Virus record (IMG/VR): IMGVR_UViG_3300044823_000222
Span: 1-40,782 of that record
Reading direction: 5' to 3' (one strand)
Length of the DNA: 40,782 bases
Origin: a virus
Shown here: positions 619 through 39,363 of the stretch, piece by piece
How positions within the stretch are numbered: the stretch's first letter is position 1
How the letters are laid out: every line of letters starts with the position of its first letter
The notes under the pieces: generated by a model
Told to the model about the DNA's origin: nothing
Seen by the model: only the letters and a program-made list of their open reading frames with translations
Databases searched by the model: none
Made by a program: the position numbers and the translations under genes

Positions 619-1206
619 ATGGATGAGAAACTACGAAACACCTTGCTCTTCCTAGGCGTTGGCGCAGTGGTTCTGGCATTTGCGTGGCACTATACGCCTT
701 GGTGGGATAATACCAGACGGATATTGTTATTGTTCTTCTGTTCTCTCTGGGCACTTGTACTACTAGTCTATGCTTTACCTCTTTACCTGGAACTCCGTAA
801 AGTCCGAATCGGCTTAAAGCTTCAACGTCTTGCTGAAAAAGGGCAGTTGCTTGAGGCTAACACTAATTTATCCGTTCAGTCTACGAGGAGCGTCTTTCAG
901 CCTCAAACGGCCACTTTGGAAGAGCAAATCAGGCAGATGGTATTGCAGACCGCGCTGGCCGAAGGCCTACCCGCTGCCGCCATGGAACTTTACAAAACAG
1001 ACAGAATGACTAAGCTGTTAGATGTTGAAATTAGACGACAGATTATGAGGATGGAGCTGGACGCCGAGCGCGATAGAATGAATATGGGATTGAGTAAAGA
1101 CCGGCGAGGCGGAAAGATGAAGATTGACTTGCTTGAGGTTGCGGCTAAGGTAAAGAGAGAGCTTGATGGATATATACGAAAAGATGATACTGGGGCAGAG
1201 CCTTGA
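619..1206 (+). CDS. Two-pass membrane protein, unknown function
   Basis: This 195-residue protein has two predicted membrane helices near the N-terminus (about residues 8-27 and 35-57) joined by a short loop with a WWDNTRR turn, then about 135 residues of charged, helical soluble domain rich in Lys, Arg and Glu. It overlaps the start of the downstream ATPase gene by about 40 bases, which suggests translational coupling. Membrane partners encoded next to VirD4/TraG ATPases often dock or anchor them, so this is a candidate anchor for that ATPase. No family was recognised. Confidence 0.65.
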   Translation: MDEKLRNTLLFLGVGAVVLAFAWHYTPWWDNTRRILLLFFCSLWALVLLVYALPLYLELRKVRIGLKLQRLAEKGQLLEANTNLSVQSTRSVFQPQTATLEEQIRQMVLQTALAEGLPAAAMELYKTDRMTKLLDVEIRRQIMRMELDAERDRMNMGLSKDRRGGKMKIDLLEVAAKVKRELDGYIRKDDTGAEP

Positions 1207-2797
1207 TGAATTGACGAGGCTGCCAAGTATTGAAGAAACTGTATCCAAATTAGAGCAACAGATTTTATCTAATTATCCTTTACGGGTTTTGGGAATAGGC
1301 ACAGAGGGTGAAGTTCCTATTTCCGAAGAAGACCGCGAATCCCACATTCACGTTTTAGGTTCCCCAGGCGAAGGCAAATCCAAATTCCTTGAACTACTCT
1401 TACGGCAGGATATCGATAGCGGATATGGCGCCTGCCTGATAGACCCCTCCGATAATGGCGACACCTGCTACAAAGTCTTAAAGTACGCTATCCGTAAAGG
1501 CTACCAGAAGATTGTCCTCATAGACCCTCACGACTTCCGTACTTACGGCGTACCCTGCCTAAACCCAATCCACACCAAAGCGCCGGCCCCGGCCGTAGTC
1601 GGTAATCTGATGGACGCTATCCGTGTCCTGTGGGGACAGAAAGAGGGTTTTGAGACTCCCAGAATTAACAAATATCTTCCCGCACTTTTGACCGCCCTCC
1701 ACGCCGCAGGAATGACGTTGGCCGAAGCCCGATATTTTATGGCCAACTCGCCGCTGTACCGGCCAAGGCGCGAACGGATAGTTTCCCAGCTTGACCCATT
1801 CAGTCTACACCGCCAGCACCTTGAAGAAGCCTTTGCCACTCGCTTGAATTATGAAAGTTTCCAATCTACCGTAAACAGGTTACAGCCTTTCCTTGATCCG
1901 ACAATGGAGCTGATGTTTGGCTCCCAACAGGGTTTACACTTTCAAGATTTAGTTTCGCAAGGCTATTTGGTACTTGTGAACCTAGACCCCGAAGGAGTAT
2001 ATGGGCAGGAACACCAAAGGCTCTTGGGGACGATTATCATTAACGAAATTACCTATGCAATTAGTCGGCTCAGAAACGGCGGATGGCGCGGCGTCTATTA
2101 CCTTTACATTGACGAAGCCGGAGATTACGCAACTTCTAAGTTATCTTACATACTGGACAAAAAACGCAAATCAGGGCTCCGTCTTACCCTCTCACATCAG
2201 AGATTTGACCAGTTTAGTGATAAGGACGTATCAAGCGCCGTTTACGGTGGAACTAAAATTAAAGTCCTTTTCAACACCGCCTCCCGAGAAGACCGCGACA
2301 AAATGATACGGATGATGTACGGCGGCGAAGTTTCCGACAGGGAAGCCAGTTACGCTTTATCCCAGCTTAAGAAACAGCACGCAGTCATAAAGATTAACAA
2401 GATGCCTCCAGTGTCGATGAGGCTAACCGACGTTCCGGACGTTCAGATGTCTGCCAAAGACCTCAACGACTGGAAAGCCAAACATTATACTAACGCCTTC
2501 TACCGCCAAGCCAAGGCGGTAAGGGAAGAAATCAACAACAGATTTGCCATACGCACTCCGGCGCAACACGCGCCACACCCCAATCGCAGTCAAACTAATC
2601 AACAGCCTCAAGCTCCGAGAGATAACCCCCAAGGAACTATTGGACAGCCGAATGTACAGCCTAGCCCGAGAGAGGATACTCCAAGCCCTCCGAGAAAATC
2701 GGTTTTTGACAGTGTCCCAGATAGCGAAACTGTTCTACGGGATAAAAAGGAACGGAAAGCCGGCAAAGTCGTTCCCCCGCCAGCCGAGGCCGGGTGA
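1166..2797 (+). CDS. VirD4/TraG-like P-loop ATPase (type IV coupling-protein family)
   Basis: The protein carries a Walker A motif GSPGEGKS near residue 66 inside the context HVLGSPGEGKSKFLELLL, and a Walker B YLYIDEAGDY near residue 314 followed by a KKRKSGLRLTLSHQRFDQF segment. This arrangement is typical of HerA/TraG/VirD4 hexameric ATPases that recruit or pump DNA. The last 80 residues are Pro/Gln-rich and low in complexity (PHPNRSQTNQQPQAPRDN), a probable disordered tail. I chose the ATG at 1166; a TTG at 1163 directly precedes it. The 3' end overlaps the next gene by about 145 bases in another frame. In this family the protein sits at the inner membrane and feeds DNA to a transfer channel. 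No VirB4-like or other channel gene is visible here, so conjugation itself is unproven; mobilisation or DNA packaging or segregation are alternatives. Confidence 0.85.
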   Translation: MDIYEKMILGQSLDELTRLPSIEETVSKLEQQILSNYPLRVLGIGTEGEVPISEEDRESHIHVLGSPGEGKSKFLELLLRQDIDSGYGACLIDPSDNGDTCYKVLKYAIRKGYQKIVLIDPHDFRTYGVPCLNPIHTKAPAPAVVGNLMDAIRVLWGQKEGFETPRINKYLPALLTALHAAGMTLAEARYFMANSPLYRPRRERIVSQLDPFSLHRQHLEEAFATRLNYESFQSTVNRLQPFLDPTMELMFGSQQGLHFQDLVSQGYLVLVNLDPEGVYGQEHQRLLGTIIINEITYAISRLRNGGWRGVYYLYIDEAGDYATSKLSYILDKKRKSGLRLTLSHQRFDQFSDKDVSSAVYGGTKIKVLFNTASREDRDKMIRMMYGGEVSDREASYALSQLKKQHAVIKINKMPPVSMRLTDVPDVQMSAKDLNDWKAKHYTNAFYRQAKAVREEINNRFAIRTPAQHAPHPNRSQTNQQPQAPRDNPQGTIGQPNVQPSPREDTPSPPRKSVFDSVPDSETVLRDKKERKAGKVVPPPAEAG

Positions 2798-3434
2798 AAT
2801 CTACGACCGGCCGCCAGGCTACGACTCCGCCCTCCAGCAGGTAAAGAGAATGCAGGAGTACGGCGAACTCCAGTTTGTCCCGTGCAAGCTGAACGGCAAG
2901 GTTCTAACGAACCTCCAGTACCTGATAATGCTCCCCAAGGACAAGCTTTCCTATCAGAATTGGGCGCATGAGATTGACCGCGGGGATTTGTACGTCGCTT
3001 TCCACAAGACCGGCAGGCTCACAACGTGGCGCACCAAATGGGAACACGACGAGTGGATAGACTTTGCCAAACAGCACAAGGTACGCCCCGACAATATGAT
3101 GGAGCTTGAGGGTTTGGCTTTTTACTTCTTTATCGAGGTGGACAGGGGCAGCGAGTTTTGGAGCGATGAGCTGGATACCACGATAGAGAATTATGCAGGG
3201 CTGGCCGACAGTATGCCCCAGCACCCGTTTTATGTTCTTTTCACCCTACAGGTTCGGGCGGGTATGGACATTCGGGAGCGTGCCGCGGCTTTCCGCAGGA
3301 AGTTTGCCCAGCTTGGGCGGAAGCATAACTTTATGATTGCCCCGCACTCCTTTGTGGTGAAAGACCCGCTGGGGGAAGTGTGGGACGACTACCGCTCTAA
3401 CGAGCCTGTTTCTCTTACGAGCCTCTGTGGATAA
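2652..3434 (+). CDS. Replication-relaxation family protein
   Basis: From the ATG at 2652 the protein is 260 residues. It opens with an HTH-like segment (RILQALRENRFLTVSQIAKL, residues 8-27) and continues with the LQYLIML, YFFIEVDRGSE and VLFTLQVR strands typical of the replication-relaxation (Replic_Relax) family found on plasmids and integrative elements. An upstream in-frame ATG at 2544 would add 36 residues lying wholly over the ATPase tail and looks less likely. The large out-of-frame overlap with the ATPase gene suggests the two are translated together. In plasmids such proteins are linked to replication initiation or DNA relaxation; I infer the same here. Its TAA stop lies inside a perfect DnaA box. 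Confidence 0.75.
   Translation: MYSLARERILQALRENRFLTVSQIAKLFYGIKRNGKPAKSFPRQPRPGEIYDRPPGYDSALQQVKRMQEYGELQFVPCKLNGKVLTNLQYLIMLPKDKLSYQNWAHEIDRGDLYVAFHKTGRLTTWRTKWEHDEWIDFAKQHKVRPDNMMELEGLAFYFFIEVDRGSEFWSDELDTTIENYAGLADSMPQHPFYVLFTLQVRAGMDIRERAAAFRRKFAQLGRKHNFMIAPHSFVVKDPLGEVWDDYRSNEPVSLTSLCG
3426..3434 (-). promoter_or_regulatory. DnaA box (TTATCCACA on minus strand)
   Basis: A perfect 9-mer match to the consensus box. It contains the stop codon of the replication-relaxation gene. The box and its flank (TGTGGATAACTGATTTGC) recur exactly at 27103-27120. Confidence 0.55.
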
Positions 3435-8577: not shown

Positions 8578-8751
8578 TCATACAGCCTCCATTTCCATTT
8601 CTTCCCTTACTTCGTCGGCGTCCTGTTGGCAGTAGTGGCAGTTAGCAGATGGATGACCTAGATGTAATTCGCGGTGTTCGTTCCAGTCTTTATCCGCCTG
8701 TAGTTCCTCCGCCTGGTTCTCTAAAATGATTGAGTTGATTGGATGTGACAT
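8578..8751 (-). CDS. 57-residue His/Cys small protein
   Basis: The minus strand encodes MSHPINSIILENQAEELQAD, then KDWNEHRELHLGHPSANCHY followed by CQQDADEVREEMEMEAV. The HLGHP..NCHYC cluster suggests a single zinc site, and the rest is acidic and helical. It is too short for most gene callers. No strong ribosome site is seen (reverse strand AACAACTTTATG). Similar tiny proteins occur in the early regions of phages; function is unknown. Confidence 0.5.
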   Translation of the reverse strand: MSHPINSIILENQAEELQADKDWNEHRELHLGHPSANCHYCQQDADEVREEMEMEAV

Positions 8752-32111: not shown

Positions 32112-32120
32112 TTATCCACA
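32112..32120 (+). promoter_or_regulatory. DnaA box
   Basis: A perfect TTATCCACA in the divergent intergenic region between the minus replication-type cluster and the small plus gene at 32162. TTGAC occurs on each side of it. Confidence 0.55.
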
Positions 32121-32413: not shown

Positions 32414-32441
32414 TTGACAGATTCTGTAGGCTTGCTATACT
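32414..32441 (+). promoter_or_regulatory. Strong sigma70-type promoter for a small RNA
   Basis: TTGACA (32414-32419), a 16-base spacer and TATACT (32436-32441). It begins right after the stop of the 81-residue gene and no frame with a ribosome site follows. Confidence 0.7.
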
Positions 32442-32447
32442 ACCCAC

Positions 32448-32533
32448 ACTTGCGAATCAGGAGCAGGTAAAGAACGTTTTTAAAAGGCGTCCAAGCCTGA
32501 TTCTTGGAAGCCCTCTAAAAGCGTTTTTTGTTT
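32448..32533 (+). ncRNA. Candidate small RNA with strong terminator
   Basis: From about 32448 an 85-nt transcript would end in a long hairpin: AACGTTTTTA (32474-32483) pairs with TAAAAGCGTT, enclosing GGC/GCC and CCAAG/CTTGG, then TTTTTTGTTT. A second option pairs AATCAGG with CCTGATT. No open frame of note is present. The two alternative foldings are typical of regulatory RNAs. Class unknown. Confidence 0.55.
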
Positions 32534-32690
32534 ACGCATGCTGACGTGCGGAATGCCATTAACGTAATGGCTGTGACCGTCCCAGAATAGCTACTGGGTT
32601 AACAGGGCGCAGGCCTCGACTCGAAGCGCTCGACCACACCGCCAGCAGCCGCAGACAAAAAACGCTTGAACATTCCAGACCCGATTGGCG
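32534..32690 (+). other. Hairpin-rich non-coding stretch
   Basis: It holds three near-perfect stem-loops in a row: CGCA/TGCG, GCCATTA/TAATGGC (loop ACG) and CCCAG/CTGGG. No gene is visible. It may be part of the RNA island or a protein-binding region. Confidence 0.45.
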
Positions 32691-32696
32691 TATACT
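32666..32696 (+). promoter_or_regulatory. Promoter candidate for the large structured RNA
   Basis: TATACT at 32691-32696 is a good -10; TTGAAC at 32666-32671 is a fair -35 with a long 19-base spacer. Transcription would start near 32703. Confidence 0.45.
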
Positions 32697-32702
32697 GTTG
32701 AC

Positions 32703-33239
32703 GGCGATTCTTCGCCACGGAGGTGTATTATGGGCCAGGCTTCTAACTGGCTAGTGAGACGCTTCCGGCTCCGATTGTGCAGGTAGTGGCACGGAAGCAT
32801 ACAGCCCGCGCCAGGGAACGAGCCAAGACTGCTACTTGCCGGCGCAGCCCCGCGGGGCGCCGCACTTGCAAGGGGGCACCCAAGCGAGCCAATTGTGAAA
32901 CCTGGCCGTCGGTCGAATGCGGGAGCCTGTCAGGCAGAACTTCGCTTCGCGACGAAGAGAAGTCTGAATGTACGACAACCTTTGGCCGCCGATAAGGGGT
33001 GGCTCGGTAGCGAAAAGCGAACGGGCAATATACGTGACCGCAAGGCCCGAAAAGTATGCCTTTAGGGATTCTGGGCGAACGTTTATTGAGACCGGCGCCA
33101 ATAAATCGTACCGAGTCCACCCTGAAATTAGATCTCCAAAAACCAATCACTCTTCCATGCAACTAAAGCCGACATCACACCCATACGAAACCAGCAACGC
33201 CACCCTGCGCCAGTAGCGCGGGCCGGCGTTTTTGTTTTT
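32703..33239 (+). ncRNA. Large structured non-coding RNA candidate (about 535 nt)
   Basis: Stems read directly: GGCGA/TCGCC with a UUCU loop (32703-32716); GCCAG/CTGGC (32734-32751); GCTTCC/GGAAGC enclosing GTGC/GCAC (32761-32798); GCGCC/GGCGC (32808-32845); a 10-bp hairpin with a GC mismatch (32939-32963); a long-range helix, 32997-33009 with 33109-33122, 13 bp with one bulged T, that encloses CGGGC/GCCCG (33022-33049) and TTTATTG/CAATAAA (33082-33105). It ends in a terminator: AACGCC/GGCGTT around GCGC/GCGC, then TTTTTGTTTTTG. Short frames inside clash with this pairing. Size and phage context recall GOLLD and ROOL RNAs, but I cannot match either. Confidence 0.55.
33196..33239 (+). terminator. 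Rho-independent terminator of the large RNA
   Basis: AACGCC and GGCGTT enclose GCGC/GCGC and are followed by a T-run broken by two G's. Confidence 0.7.
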
Positions 33240-33253
33240 GTACAATTTACCGC

Positions 33254-33475
33254 CAGCCGGCTATCAGCGAATCCGGCCAAACAACTTCGGCTGAAACCGT
33301 ATCGGATGCAGCTCCAGTCCCCGCTCTGTCCCGACCTGACAACGGGGGACCGTCATCTGCACCTGATCCGGCGAACGCGGCACAGTTGAGCAGACAACAA
33401 TTCAGGACACGAAAGGGACGCCCTGACTGCTTGCAACCAAACCGCTCGGCGGCGAAAAATATAGGTTTTCCTTGA
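33254..33475 (+). other. Open frame without a start codon
   Basis: From the CAG at 33254 the frame stays open for 73 codons and ends FRTRKGRPDCL...AAKNIGFP. It looks partly protein-like (SRQQFRTRKGRPDC) but has no ATG, GTG or TTG start and no ribosome site. It may be a remnant, or chance coding-like composition next to the RNA terminator. Confidence 0.2.
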
Positions 33476-33549
33476 AGCACACCGGGCATCTGACGGGGTG
33501 TAAAGGTCTGTTGTGTTCAAAACGGCGCGGTGGTAAAATTTGCGGCGAG

Positions 33550-34149: not shown

Positions 34150-34284
34150 GCGGGGACGTTCGCAAGGACAGACAGGCCGCGGCCACCCATAGTGTATAAG
34201 ACTTTACGCTTTATGGGTGGGTGGTCTGGATTCAGGAAATAGCTAATTCCTCCAGTCGCCGGTGCAAGTCCGGCACCCCGCACA
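34150..34284 (+). ncRNA. tRNA-like RNA with acceptor and T-arm but no normal tRNA body
   Basis: GCGGGG (34150-34155) pairs with CCCCGC (34276-34281), giving a six-pair acceptor (the seventh position is A-A). The 3' side directly follows a T-arm: GCCGG (34258-34262), loop TGCAAGT, CCGGC (34270-34274). TGCAAGT keeps the 7-base T-loop shape but has G where tRNA has psi. About 100 bases replace D-arm and anticodon arm: a long hairpin ACCCATA/TATGGGT with GTGTA/TACGC, and a second CTGG..AGGAA/TTCCT..CCAG. The 3' end is ACA, with no CCA. Full length, about 132-135 nt, fits neither a tRNA nor tmRNA. It could be a tRNA mimic, a processed leader or a Y-RNA-type molecule. Confidence 0.5.
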
Positions 34285-36550: not shown

Positions 36551-37160
36551 ATACGTCTTCTCCATCTTTCGTGAACGTCCATTCAATACCAAACGGCAGA
36601 ATTGCTTCTGGCTGATCTTTGTACCAAGCCCTTATCTCGGGATAATCTGTTGTGTCTGCTAGGCTAAACATTCGGACACGGGCACCATTGATTTGTTTTA
36701 GAGGCGGTTGTTTCTTTGTGACGGTATATTCCAGAAAAGCATCTTCGACAATGCTGTAATAGATTCGTTCCAACGGAACCCAGCTTACATGAGCCTCCCA
36801 TTGCACAATGATGATCTTGAATTTGGCAAGGAATTCTCGTAGTTCTTTGATAAATCCCAAGAAGCCGCCTCTGTAGGTTAAGTCGTGGGGAAATTCTGGA
36901 GGTACTAAGACCCCATTTGATATCAAATTGTCAAATACTGCATCGGCACGCCGGAGTAGATCCGAAGCAAATCTCTTGCTCATCTTTGTGTGTAATACCC
37001 AATCGCAATGAAACTTCAATGTTTGGTATTTGTCGGACGAGCCTGTCCTTTCAAGGAGTTTCCTGATATCCGCTAATAGTGATTTCAGAAGCGACGCATT
37101 CAACGGCTGGGATAGAGCCGACTTTATGCTTAGAACCAGTTTTGCCTTACTATCCATCAT
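36423..37160 (-). CDS. Unknown protein coupled to a tyrosine recombinase
   Basis: A 245-residue protein. The N-terminal half is helical (KLVLSIKSALSQPLNASLLK, then KYQTLKFHCDWVLHTKMSKR), the middle is aromatic (KELREFLAKFKIIIVQWEAH), and the C-terminal half is mixed. Its start lies inside the recombinase stop (ATGA), so the two form an operon. The 3' end runs 128 bases into the VRR-NUC frame on the other strand, where its last residues (PAHTLLHCWPQTPTLPPR) look less ordered. A role in integration or immunity is suggested by position only. Confidence 0.55.
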   Translation of the reverse strand: MMDSKAKLVLSIKSALSQPLNASLLKSLLADIRKLLERTGSSDKYQTLKFHCDWVLHTKMSKRFASDLLRRADAVFDNLISNGVLVPPEFPHDLTYRGGFLGFIKELREFLAKFKIIIVQWEAHVSWVPLERIYYSIVEDAFLEYTVTKKQPPLKQINGARVRMFSLADTTDYPEIRAWYKDQPEAILPFGIEWTFTKDGEDVFKVPSLCMLPSYVEREVKEKVPPNPAHTLLHCWPQTPTLPPR

Positions 37161-38086
37161 CTTGACAGCAAGGATAGCCCATCGTGGACCCGTTGTAAAT
37201 CCTCAATCCCGAGGCTTCTGAGGTACCGCTCCGTCGTGCTGATGGAGGAGTGTCCCAGAATCCGCTGGAGGTAGTAGAGGTTTCCACCAGCCCGCAAATA
37301 ATTAACCGCAAACGAATGTCTCAACGTATGCCAAGAACAACGCACCCCCACAATTCCAGCCTTCCGGCACAAGACCTTGAAATCACGCTCCGAGTTCCGT
37401 ACACTCAACGCGGTTCCCGTGCTGGTGCAAAACACCCGCGCCTGCTGATGGTTGGCCATATACCGAAACAAGACCTTGCGCAGCTCAATGCTCACTGGTA
37501 CGAGTCGCTGTTTGTTGCCCTTGCCGTGAACAAGAAAAACGAGGTTGTCAAAGTCCACATCTTTGCGCGCCAAGCCCAGCAGCTCGCTTATCCGCATACC
37601 GGTGTCCAGCGCCACAAGCGCAATGGCGTGCGCGCGGATTTGGTTACGGCCGACGGGCTTCCAGTGTACAAGCTTGGCGACTTGCTCCCTGCTAAACGTC
37701 GCTAGGATTTTCTGCTCTTCTTTTAGACGGGGGATTTTGACTTCCAGCTTTGCCCACTTCCAGAATGCCCGCATATGCCGGAGGTAGCAGTTCACCGAGA
37801 TGGCCGACATCCGTTGCCGCAACTCTCCAATTCGTTCCATAATGGATTGGCGGGTGTTCACGGCACCGAAAGCGTTGAAGGCGCACTGGTACGAGATGAT
37901 GGTTTTTGGCGACACGTTTTGCAGGTATTTTCGCTCTTGCAGGAACTGTGCAGTCAGACGCTCAAAATCCGCTGCTTTGTCCGTAAGTTGTTGAAAAGAA
38001 GGCTGGCGTAGCTCAGTTGGTAGAGCATCTGATTTGTAATCAGAGGGTCGGGGGTTCAAATCCCTCCGCCAGCTCCATAAAATCAA
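37157..38086 (-). CDS. Tyrosine recombinase (XerC/D-like), 5' end overlaps tRNA-Thr
   Basis: The body carries the N-terminal SAM-like domain (FLQERKYLQNVSPKTIISYQ) and the catalytic domain with Arg in DTGMRISELL, His-x-x-Arg in WHTLRHSF, a GHSS pair and a Tyr in TTERYL, so it is a complete strand-exchange enzyme. The nominal N-terminus (MILWSWRRDLNPRPSDYK) is the antisense reading of the tRNA-Thr gene and is not real protein. No ATG follows the tRNA; GTG at 37915 falls inside the first domain. Its natural start may therefore have been replaced when the element integrated, or lies in the tRNA. Coupled to the unknown gene downstream. Confidence 0.8.
   Translation of the reverse strand: MILWSWRRDLNPRPSDYKSDALPTELRQPSFQQLTDKAADFERLTAQFLQERKYLQNVSPKTIISYQCAFNAFGAVNTRQSIMERIGELRQRMSAISVNCYLRHMRAFWKWAKLEVKIPRLKEEQKILATFSREQVAKLVHWKPVGRNQIRAHAIALVALDTGMRISELLGLARKDVDFDNLVFLVHGKGNKQRLVPVSIELRKVLFRYMANHQQARVFCTSTGTALSVRNSERDFKVLCRKAGIVGVRCSWHTLRHSFAVNYLRAGGNLYYLQRILGHSSISTTERYLRSLGIEDLQRVHDGLSLLSR
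38002..38077 (+). tRNA. tRNA-Thr (anticodon TGT)
   Basis: Acceptor GCTGGCG/CGCCAGC, D-arm GCTCAGTTGGTAGAGC, anticodon stem TCTGA/TCAGA with loop TTTGTAA, T-arm GGGGGTTCAAATCCCTC and an encoded CCA (76 nt in all). It lies between two tyrosine recombinases and is the probable attachment site for one or both elements. Confidence 0.95.
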
Positions 38087-38097
38087 TTACTTACGCG

Positions 38098-39363
38098 TCA
38101 ATTCAGATCCTGGAAACTCGGTTTGGTAGCAACGCTGGTAGCAACTGGTTCCGCAGGCTTCAAAATCGCATCCATCTGCTCGGCGGCTTCCTTTCGGAGC
38201 GCCGGCACCACATGCGAGTACAAGTTCATGGTGATGGCGATCTGGCTATGGCCGAGCAGATCCATCACCACCCGCTGGTGAACGCCCTGGGTGAGTAGGA
38301 GCGTCGCGGCCGTGTGCCTGAGGTCGTGAATCCGAATGTGATGCAGACCAGCAATCGCAAGAATCTGGCCGTACGCGCGTTCCAGGTTCCGGGGTTCGAG
38401 CGGCGTACCGATCCCGGTGGTGAACACGTAGTCTGATTCCTTCCATCTGGTCCCCGCCAAGCGGCGCTCCTGTTCCTGCATGGCGCGATGCTGTAGCAGA
38501 GCAGAGACGCACACCTGGGGAAGATTGATGGTCCGCCGGCTGGAGCGCTTCGGCTCCTTGAGGATCAGGCGCCCTTTTTTCTCTCCCGGCATTTTGACGC
38601 GTTGCAGCGCCAGCCGCACGGCGAGGGTGCCGCGTTCCAGGTCGATGGCCGACCATTGCAGAGCGAGCGCTTCTCCCTTCCTGAGTCCGAGCGCGAGCGC
38701 CGCGGTGAACAGGGCACCGAGCCTATGCTGCTTGGCGGCCTCGATCAATTTCTGCGCTTGCTCGGGCGTGTACGGCGCGATCTCGGCGTGTTCCGCTTTC
38801 GGGAAGTCCACCAAGAGCGCAACGTTTCGCGGCACCAGGTCGAGCATACAGGCGCGATCCAGAGCCATCCGCAGCACAACGAGGCAATAGCGAACCGTGG
38901 CGGCGGAAAGATGCCGCGGCGGGGGCGGCGGCTGCCCCTCGATGGCTTTTCTGACGCCCGGCCCGTTCTCCACAATGGCATCCAGCTTTGTCTGTTTCAG
39001 CCGTTGGACGTGGTGGGCCCCGAGCTTCCCGAGCGGAATTTCGCCGAGCGTCGGTATGAGGTGCAACCGGACCACGCCTTCGTAGCTAACGTAGGTGGGC
39101 GGTGAAACGTCGGCCTTCACCATGTTCAGCCAATCGTTCAGGAACTCGCCAACCGTCTGCTTCGCAGGGTTGATGTTGATCCCGCGTTGCCGGTCACGCA
39201 GTGCTGTGGTTAGTTCATCGGCGACCTCGTGTCGCGTGGCGGCCGTGAATACTTTGCGCTTGGGCTTGCCTTCGACATTCTTGCCGACAGTCACGGCCGC
39301 GCGCCAGCGGCCATCCTGCATTTTGTAGATCGAGCCTTCAGCGTTTCCGCGTCTCTTTGCCAT
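38098..39363 (-). CDS. int: Tyrosine integrase of the right-hand element
   Basis: A 421-residue integrase. The N-terminus (AKRRGNAEGSIYKMQDGRWR) is an AP2-like arm-binding domain, followed by a core-binding SAM-like domain (QTVGEFLNDWLNMVKADVSP) and a catalytic domain with Arg in LGLRKGEALAL, His-x-x-Arg in IHDLRHTAATL, GHSQ and a Tyr in MNLYSHV. Its stop is 21 bases from the 3' end of tRNA-Thr, the usual layout for an integrated element using the 3' end of a tRNA. It is GC-rich, unlike most of the window, and overlaps the next gene by 26 bases. Confidence 0.92.
   Translation of the reverse strand: MAKRRGNAEGSIYKMQDGRWRAAVTVGKNVEGKPKRKVFTAATRHEVADELTTALRDRQRGININPAKQTVGEFLNDWLNMVKADVSPPTYVSYEGVVRLHLIPTLGEIPLGKLGAHHVQRLKQTKLDAIVENGPGVRKAIEGQPPPPPRHLSAATVRYCLVVLRMALDRACMLDLVPRNVALLVDFPKAEHAEIAPYTPEQAQKLIEAAKQHRLGALFTAALALGLRKGEALALQWSAIDLERGTLAVRLALQRVKMPGEKKGRLILKEPKRSSRRTINLPQVCVSALLQHRAMQEQERRLAGTRWKESDYVFTTGIGTPLEPRNLERAYGQILAIAGLHHIRIHDLRHTAATLLLTQGVHQRVVMDLLGHSQIAITMNLYSHVVPALRKEAAEQMDAILKPAEPVATSVATKPSFQDLN

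Follow-up and report, generated by a model that had tools for sequence, protein, structure and literature searches.

A large structured RNA, probably of a new noncoding family, in a putative accessory cassette of a temperate phage

GOLLD, ROOL and OLE are large ornate RNAs of bacteria and phages whose structures have been solved and whose functions are poorly understood (PMC12286853). In GOLLD and ROOL poorly conserved linkers or regions lie beside conserved cores, and both RNAs form cages (PMC12286853). Here we describe a locus in a virus record of 40,782 bases (the whole stretch of DNA that was analyzed, below called the window), which carries terminase, portal, capsid and tail genes. The interval 32703–33236 is best explained, judging from its sequence and that of one homologue on phage contig L014, as a gene for a noncoding RNA that is transcribed on its own; it would be an accessory cassette located within a temperate phage's early/recombination region. 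We assign a probability of about 0.9 to the view that the interval encodes a genuine structured noncoding RNA belonging to a new family. Its predicted parts are as follows, with positions in the window and z values from the consensus fold of the two copies.

32703–33236, + strand: large structured RNA, ~534 nt, from sequence, fold, the homologue and the two-sequence consensus
32666–32696, + strand: putative sigma-70-type promoter, TTGAAC(A) resembling a −35, 18–19 nt spacer, TATACT as −10; same hexamers and spacing in L014 at 8623–8653
32703–32716, + strand: 5' hairpin GGCGA-TTCT-TCGCC, one T/C loop change in L014
32718–32767, + strand: P1 hairpin domain, CGGAGGTGT/ACGCTTCCG enclosing GGCCAG-GCTTCTAA-CTGGCT, pairs invariant
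32730–32786, + strand: possible reading frame of 18 codons, MGQASNWLVRRFRLRLCR; L014 retains it apart from one R-to-K change
32771–32912, + strand: P2 (32771–32775/32908–32912), closing helix of the multi-branched part of the 5' domain, invariant
32810–32906, + strand: four-way junction, z −3.0 (0/200 column shuffles), with compensatory changes
32810–32815/32901–32906, + strand: PA of the junction, never varies
32819–32838, + strand: P3 of the junction, 1 compensatory change
32840–32862, + strand: P4 of the junction, 3 compensatory changes across the hairpin
32865–32888, + strand: P5 of the junction, 1 compensatory change
32913–32980, + strand: variable region V1, sharing no fold with L014 (consensus energy 0)
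32996–33123, + strand: P7 clamp helix (32996–33012/33106–33123), z −6.9
33013–33105, + strand: variable region V2, enclosed by the clamp and largely missing from L014
33124–33195, + strand: 3' tract rich in A and C, poor in G and mostly unpaired, in which CCCATACGAAACCAGCAACGCC is conserved, from composition and predicted unpaired probability
33196–33236, + strand: intrinsic terminator with U tract, z −4.9

By inspection of the sequence the −10 hexamer TATACT lies at 32691–32696 and TTGAAC(A) at 32666–32672, which would place the start near 32703, and the terminator stem occupies 33196–33230 and is followed by a T run. A promoter of its own with this −10 and a classic terminator had been proposed in the initial annotation; both are present and both are kept in L014. 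We infer that the locus is transcribed and that its product works as a folded RNA.

The single homologue (L014, 8660–9107, 448 nt) was found by searching viral contigs with the protein encoded at 34262. The first ~250 and last ~145 bases of the two copies are 85% identical, and promoter, terminator and downstream protein gene are shared, while the interior differs: ~68 nt (V1) are unrelated and most of the clamp loop (V2) is missing in L014. The RNA is absent from two further phages, L010/L016 and L011/L015, in which the gene neighbourhood is the same, and thus behaves as an accessory cassette. BLASTN of both copies against phage and plasmid records gave no match. Exact searches of viral and genome contigs returned nothing for CTGGGCGAACGTTTATTGAGAC and GGGATTCTGGGCGAACGTT, and for CGAGTCCACCCTGAAA and CTTCTAACTGGCTAG only the contig of L014 (again as L024) plus chance matches. 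No homologue was detected by BLAST and a 5'-domain covariance model across the presumed host phylum, that of MAG G001 (380 genomes), nor by the model in 82 genomes of the order of this MAG, the genomes searched including no known positive; six BLAST matches at E<0.01 in the phylum genomes were 22–34 nt long and about as numerous as chance gives. As far as searched, the family is narrowly distributed, and collections outside these, metagenome contigs above all, may hold more.

Folded alone, the window copy reached an MFE of −208.3 kcal/mol (z −2.4, 2/100 shuffles as good) and its reverse strand scored similarly (z −2.7), so that folding of one sequence fixes no strand. The + strand was favoured by the single-sequence fold of L014 (z −2.2 vs −0.7) and by the two-sequence consensus (z −5.4 vs −3.3 for the − strand). 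When alignment columns were shuffled within conservation classes (n=200), no shuffle equalled the consensus folds of the 5' domain (z −3.6), the junction (−3.0), P7 (−6.9) or the terminator (−4.9). These strand values also bear on whether the region is a DNA-level element, that is an origin, recombination or packaging site with inverted repeats that are merely RNA-like. Such an element would suit the early region, the DnaA-box-like TTATCCACA at 32112 and the large inverted-repeat insert next door, but it is improbable, as a promoter and a terminator bracket the region, the + strand gives the better consensus, and relatives keep the neighbouring genes without the RNA, which is therefore not a required origin.

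Each of the 58 pairs of the 5' domain (~210 nt) forms in the window copy as well as in L014, and paired cells amount to 100% as compared with 34–46% when the partner was slid as a control. Five compensatory double changes were found there (one in P3, three in the P4 hairpin, one in P5), on a structure that was derived from the same two-sequence alignment. With two copies the covariation is thin, 14 of 500 letter shuffles reaching the observed score. P1, P2 and PA never vary between the copies, and for P1 covariation neither supports nor contradicts the pairing. In the clamp core, 32996–33009 (GGGGTGGCTCGGTA) pairs with 33109–33123 (TACCGAGTCCACCCT) over ~13 bp with one bulged U, and the pairing of P7 is kept in L014 via one-sided changes, T-A to T-G and G-T to A-T. 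The full sets of base pairs predicted from each sequence by itself, when tested on the other copy, showed no excess of compensation, and whole single-sequence folds failed as predictors of the homologue; the compensation support is local to the named helices.

The initial annotation had drawn at least eight stems, and these fared differently. Its 13-bp long-range helix is present, with one bulge, and conserved in L014, and the terminator and the 5' domain are conserved as well; compensation is not in excess among the pairs drawn from a single sequence, and the smaller hairpins within the clamp and at 32913–32980 are not conserved, their sequence being absent from or unrelated in L014. Lack of covariation among homologues had been named as evidence against the stems; compensatory changes are seen, in what is a weak test with two sequences. 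Taken together, comparison of the two copies shows a predicted core fold (5' domain, clamp and terminator) conserved around variable linkers, and this core with its compensatory changes in L014 bears out the claim of a large structured RNA.

No frame of at least 60 aa is conserved between the window and L014, which agrees with the earlier statement that no reading frame fits the pairing as far as long frames are concerned; the 18-codon frame, however, survives in L014 with its upstream GGAGGTG and spacing. The sole change in its 57 nt is non-synonymous and synonymous changes number 0, which argues for constraint on nucleotides rather than codons; a frame conserved with synonymous changes, as expected of protein-coding sequence, was not seen. 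The Shine-Dalgarno-like GGAGGTG lies inside P1, and CGCTTCCG could pair instead with a downstream CGGAAGC that is visible in the sequence, an arrangement suited to a dual-function or leader transcript in which the frame would give a small basic peptide and the remainder a controlling structured untranslated region. Frame, Shine-Dalgarno sequence and spacing are kept in L014 as that reading would have it. We nevertheless regard it as rather unlikely, given the absence of silent changes beside the one non-synonymous change, conservation that runs past the stop codon, and the many genes of this phage that show no Shine-Dalgarno sequence.

The 3' tract has an A+C content of 75% in the window copy and 78% in L014, and in predicted folds its mean unpaired probability is 0.55 and 0.67, respectively, as compared with 0.34 and 0.36 elsewhere. 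Although mostly unpaired in these folds, 22 nt of it are invariant between the copies. Small RNAs often keep conserved unpaired stretches next to the terminator, which this tract adjoins, and being C-rich, G-poor and little structured it also resembles a rut site. The RNA could therefore be a trans-acting base-pairing regulator or sponge, with the 5' domain as a stability element and the A/C-rich tract pairing with mRNAs or binding a Rho-like factor. This is possible but doubtful, since no convincing complementary site was found at the phage gene starts (best z −3.5, n=42 tested), nor any perfect 12-nt complement elsewhere in the phage.

A folded scaffold, acting alone, as a multimer or with protein, would be the most likely function, a tentative choice that we hold at somewhat less than even odds. 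The core (5' multi-branched domain and P7 clamp) would form the scaffold, from which two tolerant linkers project, and it would either assemble with its own copies, in the manner of GOLLD and ROOL, or bind a protein, for which the unpaired A/C-rich tract is a possible contact site. Both the scaffold and the new family are favoured by the conserved ends with an unrelated interior, by a core fold beyond shuffled controls together with five compensatory changes, and by the preferred + strand with conserved promoter and terminator; for the scaffold there is also the analogy with GOLLD and ROOL, in which poorly conserved linkers lie beside conserved cores. More specifically, the RNA might represent a new class of large phage RNAs that assemble with themselves into a cage or multimer, that have no sequence relationship to GOLLD or ROOL and that occur in phages of CPR-like bacteria with small genomes. 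Linkers that project from an assembly would be free to vary, and the P4 loop is a self-complementary CGCG in both copies although the stem changes, which would allow a loop-loop contact between copies. We consider this specific form unlikely.

To the left of the RNA, on the − strand, are genes for SSB-like and Gam-like proteins (weak matches), and the right-hand side carries a membrane-protein-like ORF, a conserved protein at 34262 (function unassigned), an HNH homing endonuclease, two integrases and tRNA-Thr. The HNH protein, 1.5 kb downstream, brings to mind an RNA that serves as guide or template, to an RNA-guided nuclease or to a reverse transcriptase, but it matches homing endonucleases and the proteins scanned contain no reverse transcriptase, IscB or TnpB domain, which makes this reading very improbable. 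The tRNA-Thr beside the integrase genes is probably an attachment site. At 37157–39363 two different tyrosine integrases flank it, and beyond it G+C rises to 0.56–0.61, which may mark a boundary with the host or with a second element. At the left end of the window (1163–3434) are a TrwB-like coupling protein and a Replic_Relax protein, partly shared with L004. Many genes of the phage lack a Shine-Dalgarno sequence, and several have TTAAC- or AACCA-like stretches before the ATG. Two genomes from a single order, which belongs to a group with genome sizes of 0.3–1.6 Mb, contain portal relatives, and this suggests a CPR-like, very small-genome bacterium as host; the relatives are distant (~42% identity) and one is on a 9.4-kb contig of a metagenome bin, so that this is a lead, not proof. 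Similarity of tRNA-Thr, tried as a host clue, was uninformative (at best 85% over a near-full gene).

Other structured elements lie within the same 1.1 kb as the large RNA. A small RNA candidate of ~90–130 nt with a TTGACA promoter (window 32414–32536; L014 8492–8625; L016 from 8699; L015 from 8872) is present in 4/4 phages with unrelated helix sequences, and a predicted pseudoknot joins a 5' strand to the terminator hairpin loop (shuffle p by length 0.0002–0.011; by energy L014 is weak, 0.095). The DnaA-box-like TTATCCACA (window 32112 and 8935; L014 7835; L016 8682; L011 6230) lies upstream of this small RNA in all four phages, directly before the promoter in L016 and L011. At 32519–32667 is a 148-bp inverted-repeat insert (z −4.2 as RNA, −4.4 as DNA) whose 28-nt arms are 82% complementary and which has inner hairpins, the central one being in none of the other loci compared. 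A second noncoding structured region (window 33245–33520; L016 9081–9419; L014 9112–9410) has a mean column identity of 94% between window and L016, with frame-breaking indels, and in L014 an unrelated structured sequence replaces it. These observations suggest that the locus is a place where these phages swap structured-RNA cassettes.

An unrelated family with a conserved core and variable linkers offers an independent case on whether this architecture, and multimer assembly, arose repeatedly. It also sits in phages of a poorly studied host group, at a locus that seems to serve for the exchange of structured-RNA cassettes between phages.

Searches with both copies against Rfam (4227 families, gathering and E≤10 thresholds) gave only two chance matches at E about 9, and none to OLE RNA. 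When run directly, the ROOL model (RF03087) gave no match at E≤10, as was also the case for 14 control genomes, with no positive control among them, and the GOLLD model (RF02032) gave none in the RNA and one 4.4-bit chance match elsewhere. Rfam, these direct models and BLAST thus all agree with the earlier view that the RNA cannot be placed in a known class. The likeness to GOLLD and ROOL that was noted with it holds for size, phage setting and architecture, but does not extend to membership by covariance model. OLE, at ~600 nt, is of similar size and highly structured, but is found mostly in Bacillota (PMC12054373) and is not a phage cassette. Like ROOL, a large and highly structured phage-borne RNA that lacks conservation in its internal linker (PMC12286853), the new RNA is large and structured and has variable interior parts; unlike ROOL it has a far narrower distribution as far as searched, and no sequence or stem correspondence between the two is known. 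GOLLD is phage-encoded, often beside tRNA genes, and here the RNA is in a phage, with a single tRNA-Thr 4.8 kb away beside integrase genes. Both are large structured phage RNAs with conserved and variable parts (PMC12286853), but in GOLLD the conserved part lies at the 3' end region, and in the present RNA most of the conserved structure falls in the 5' domain.
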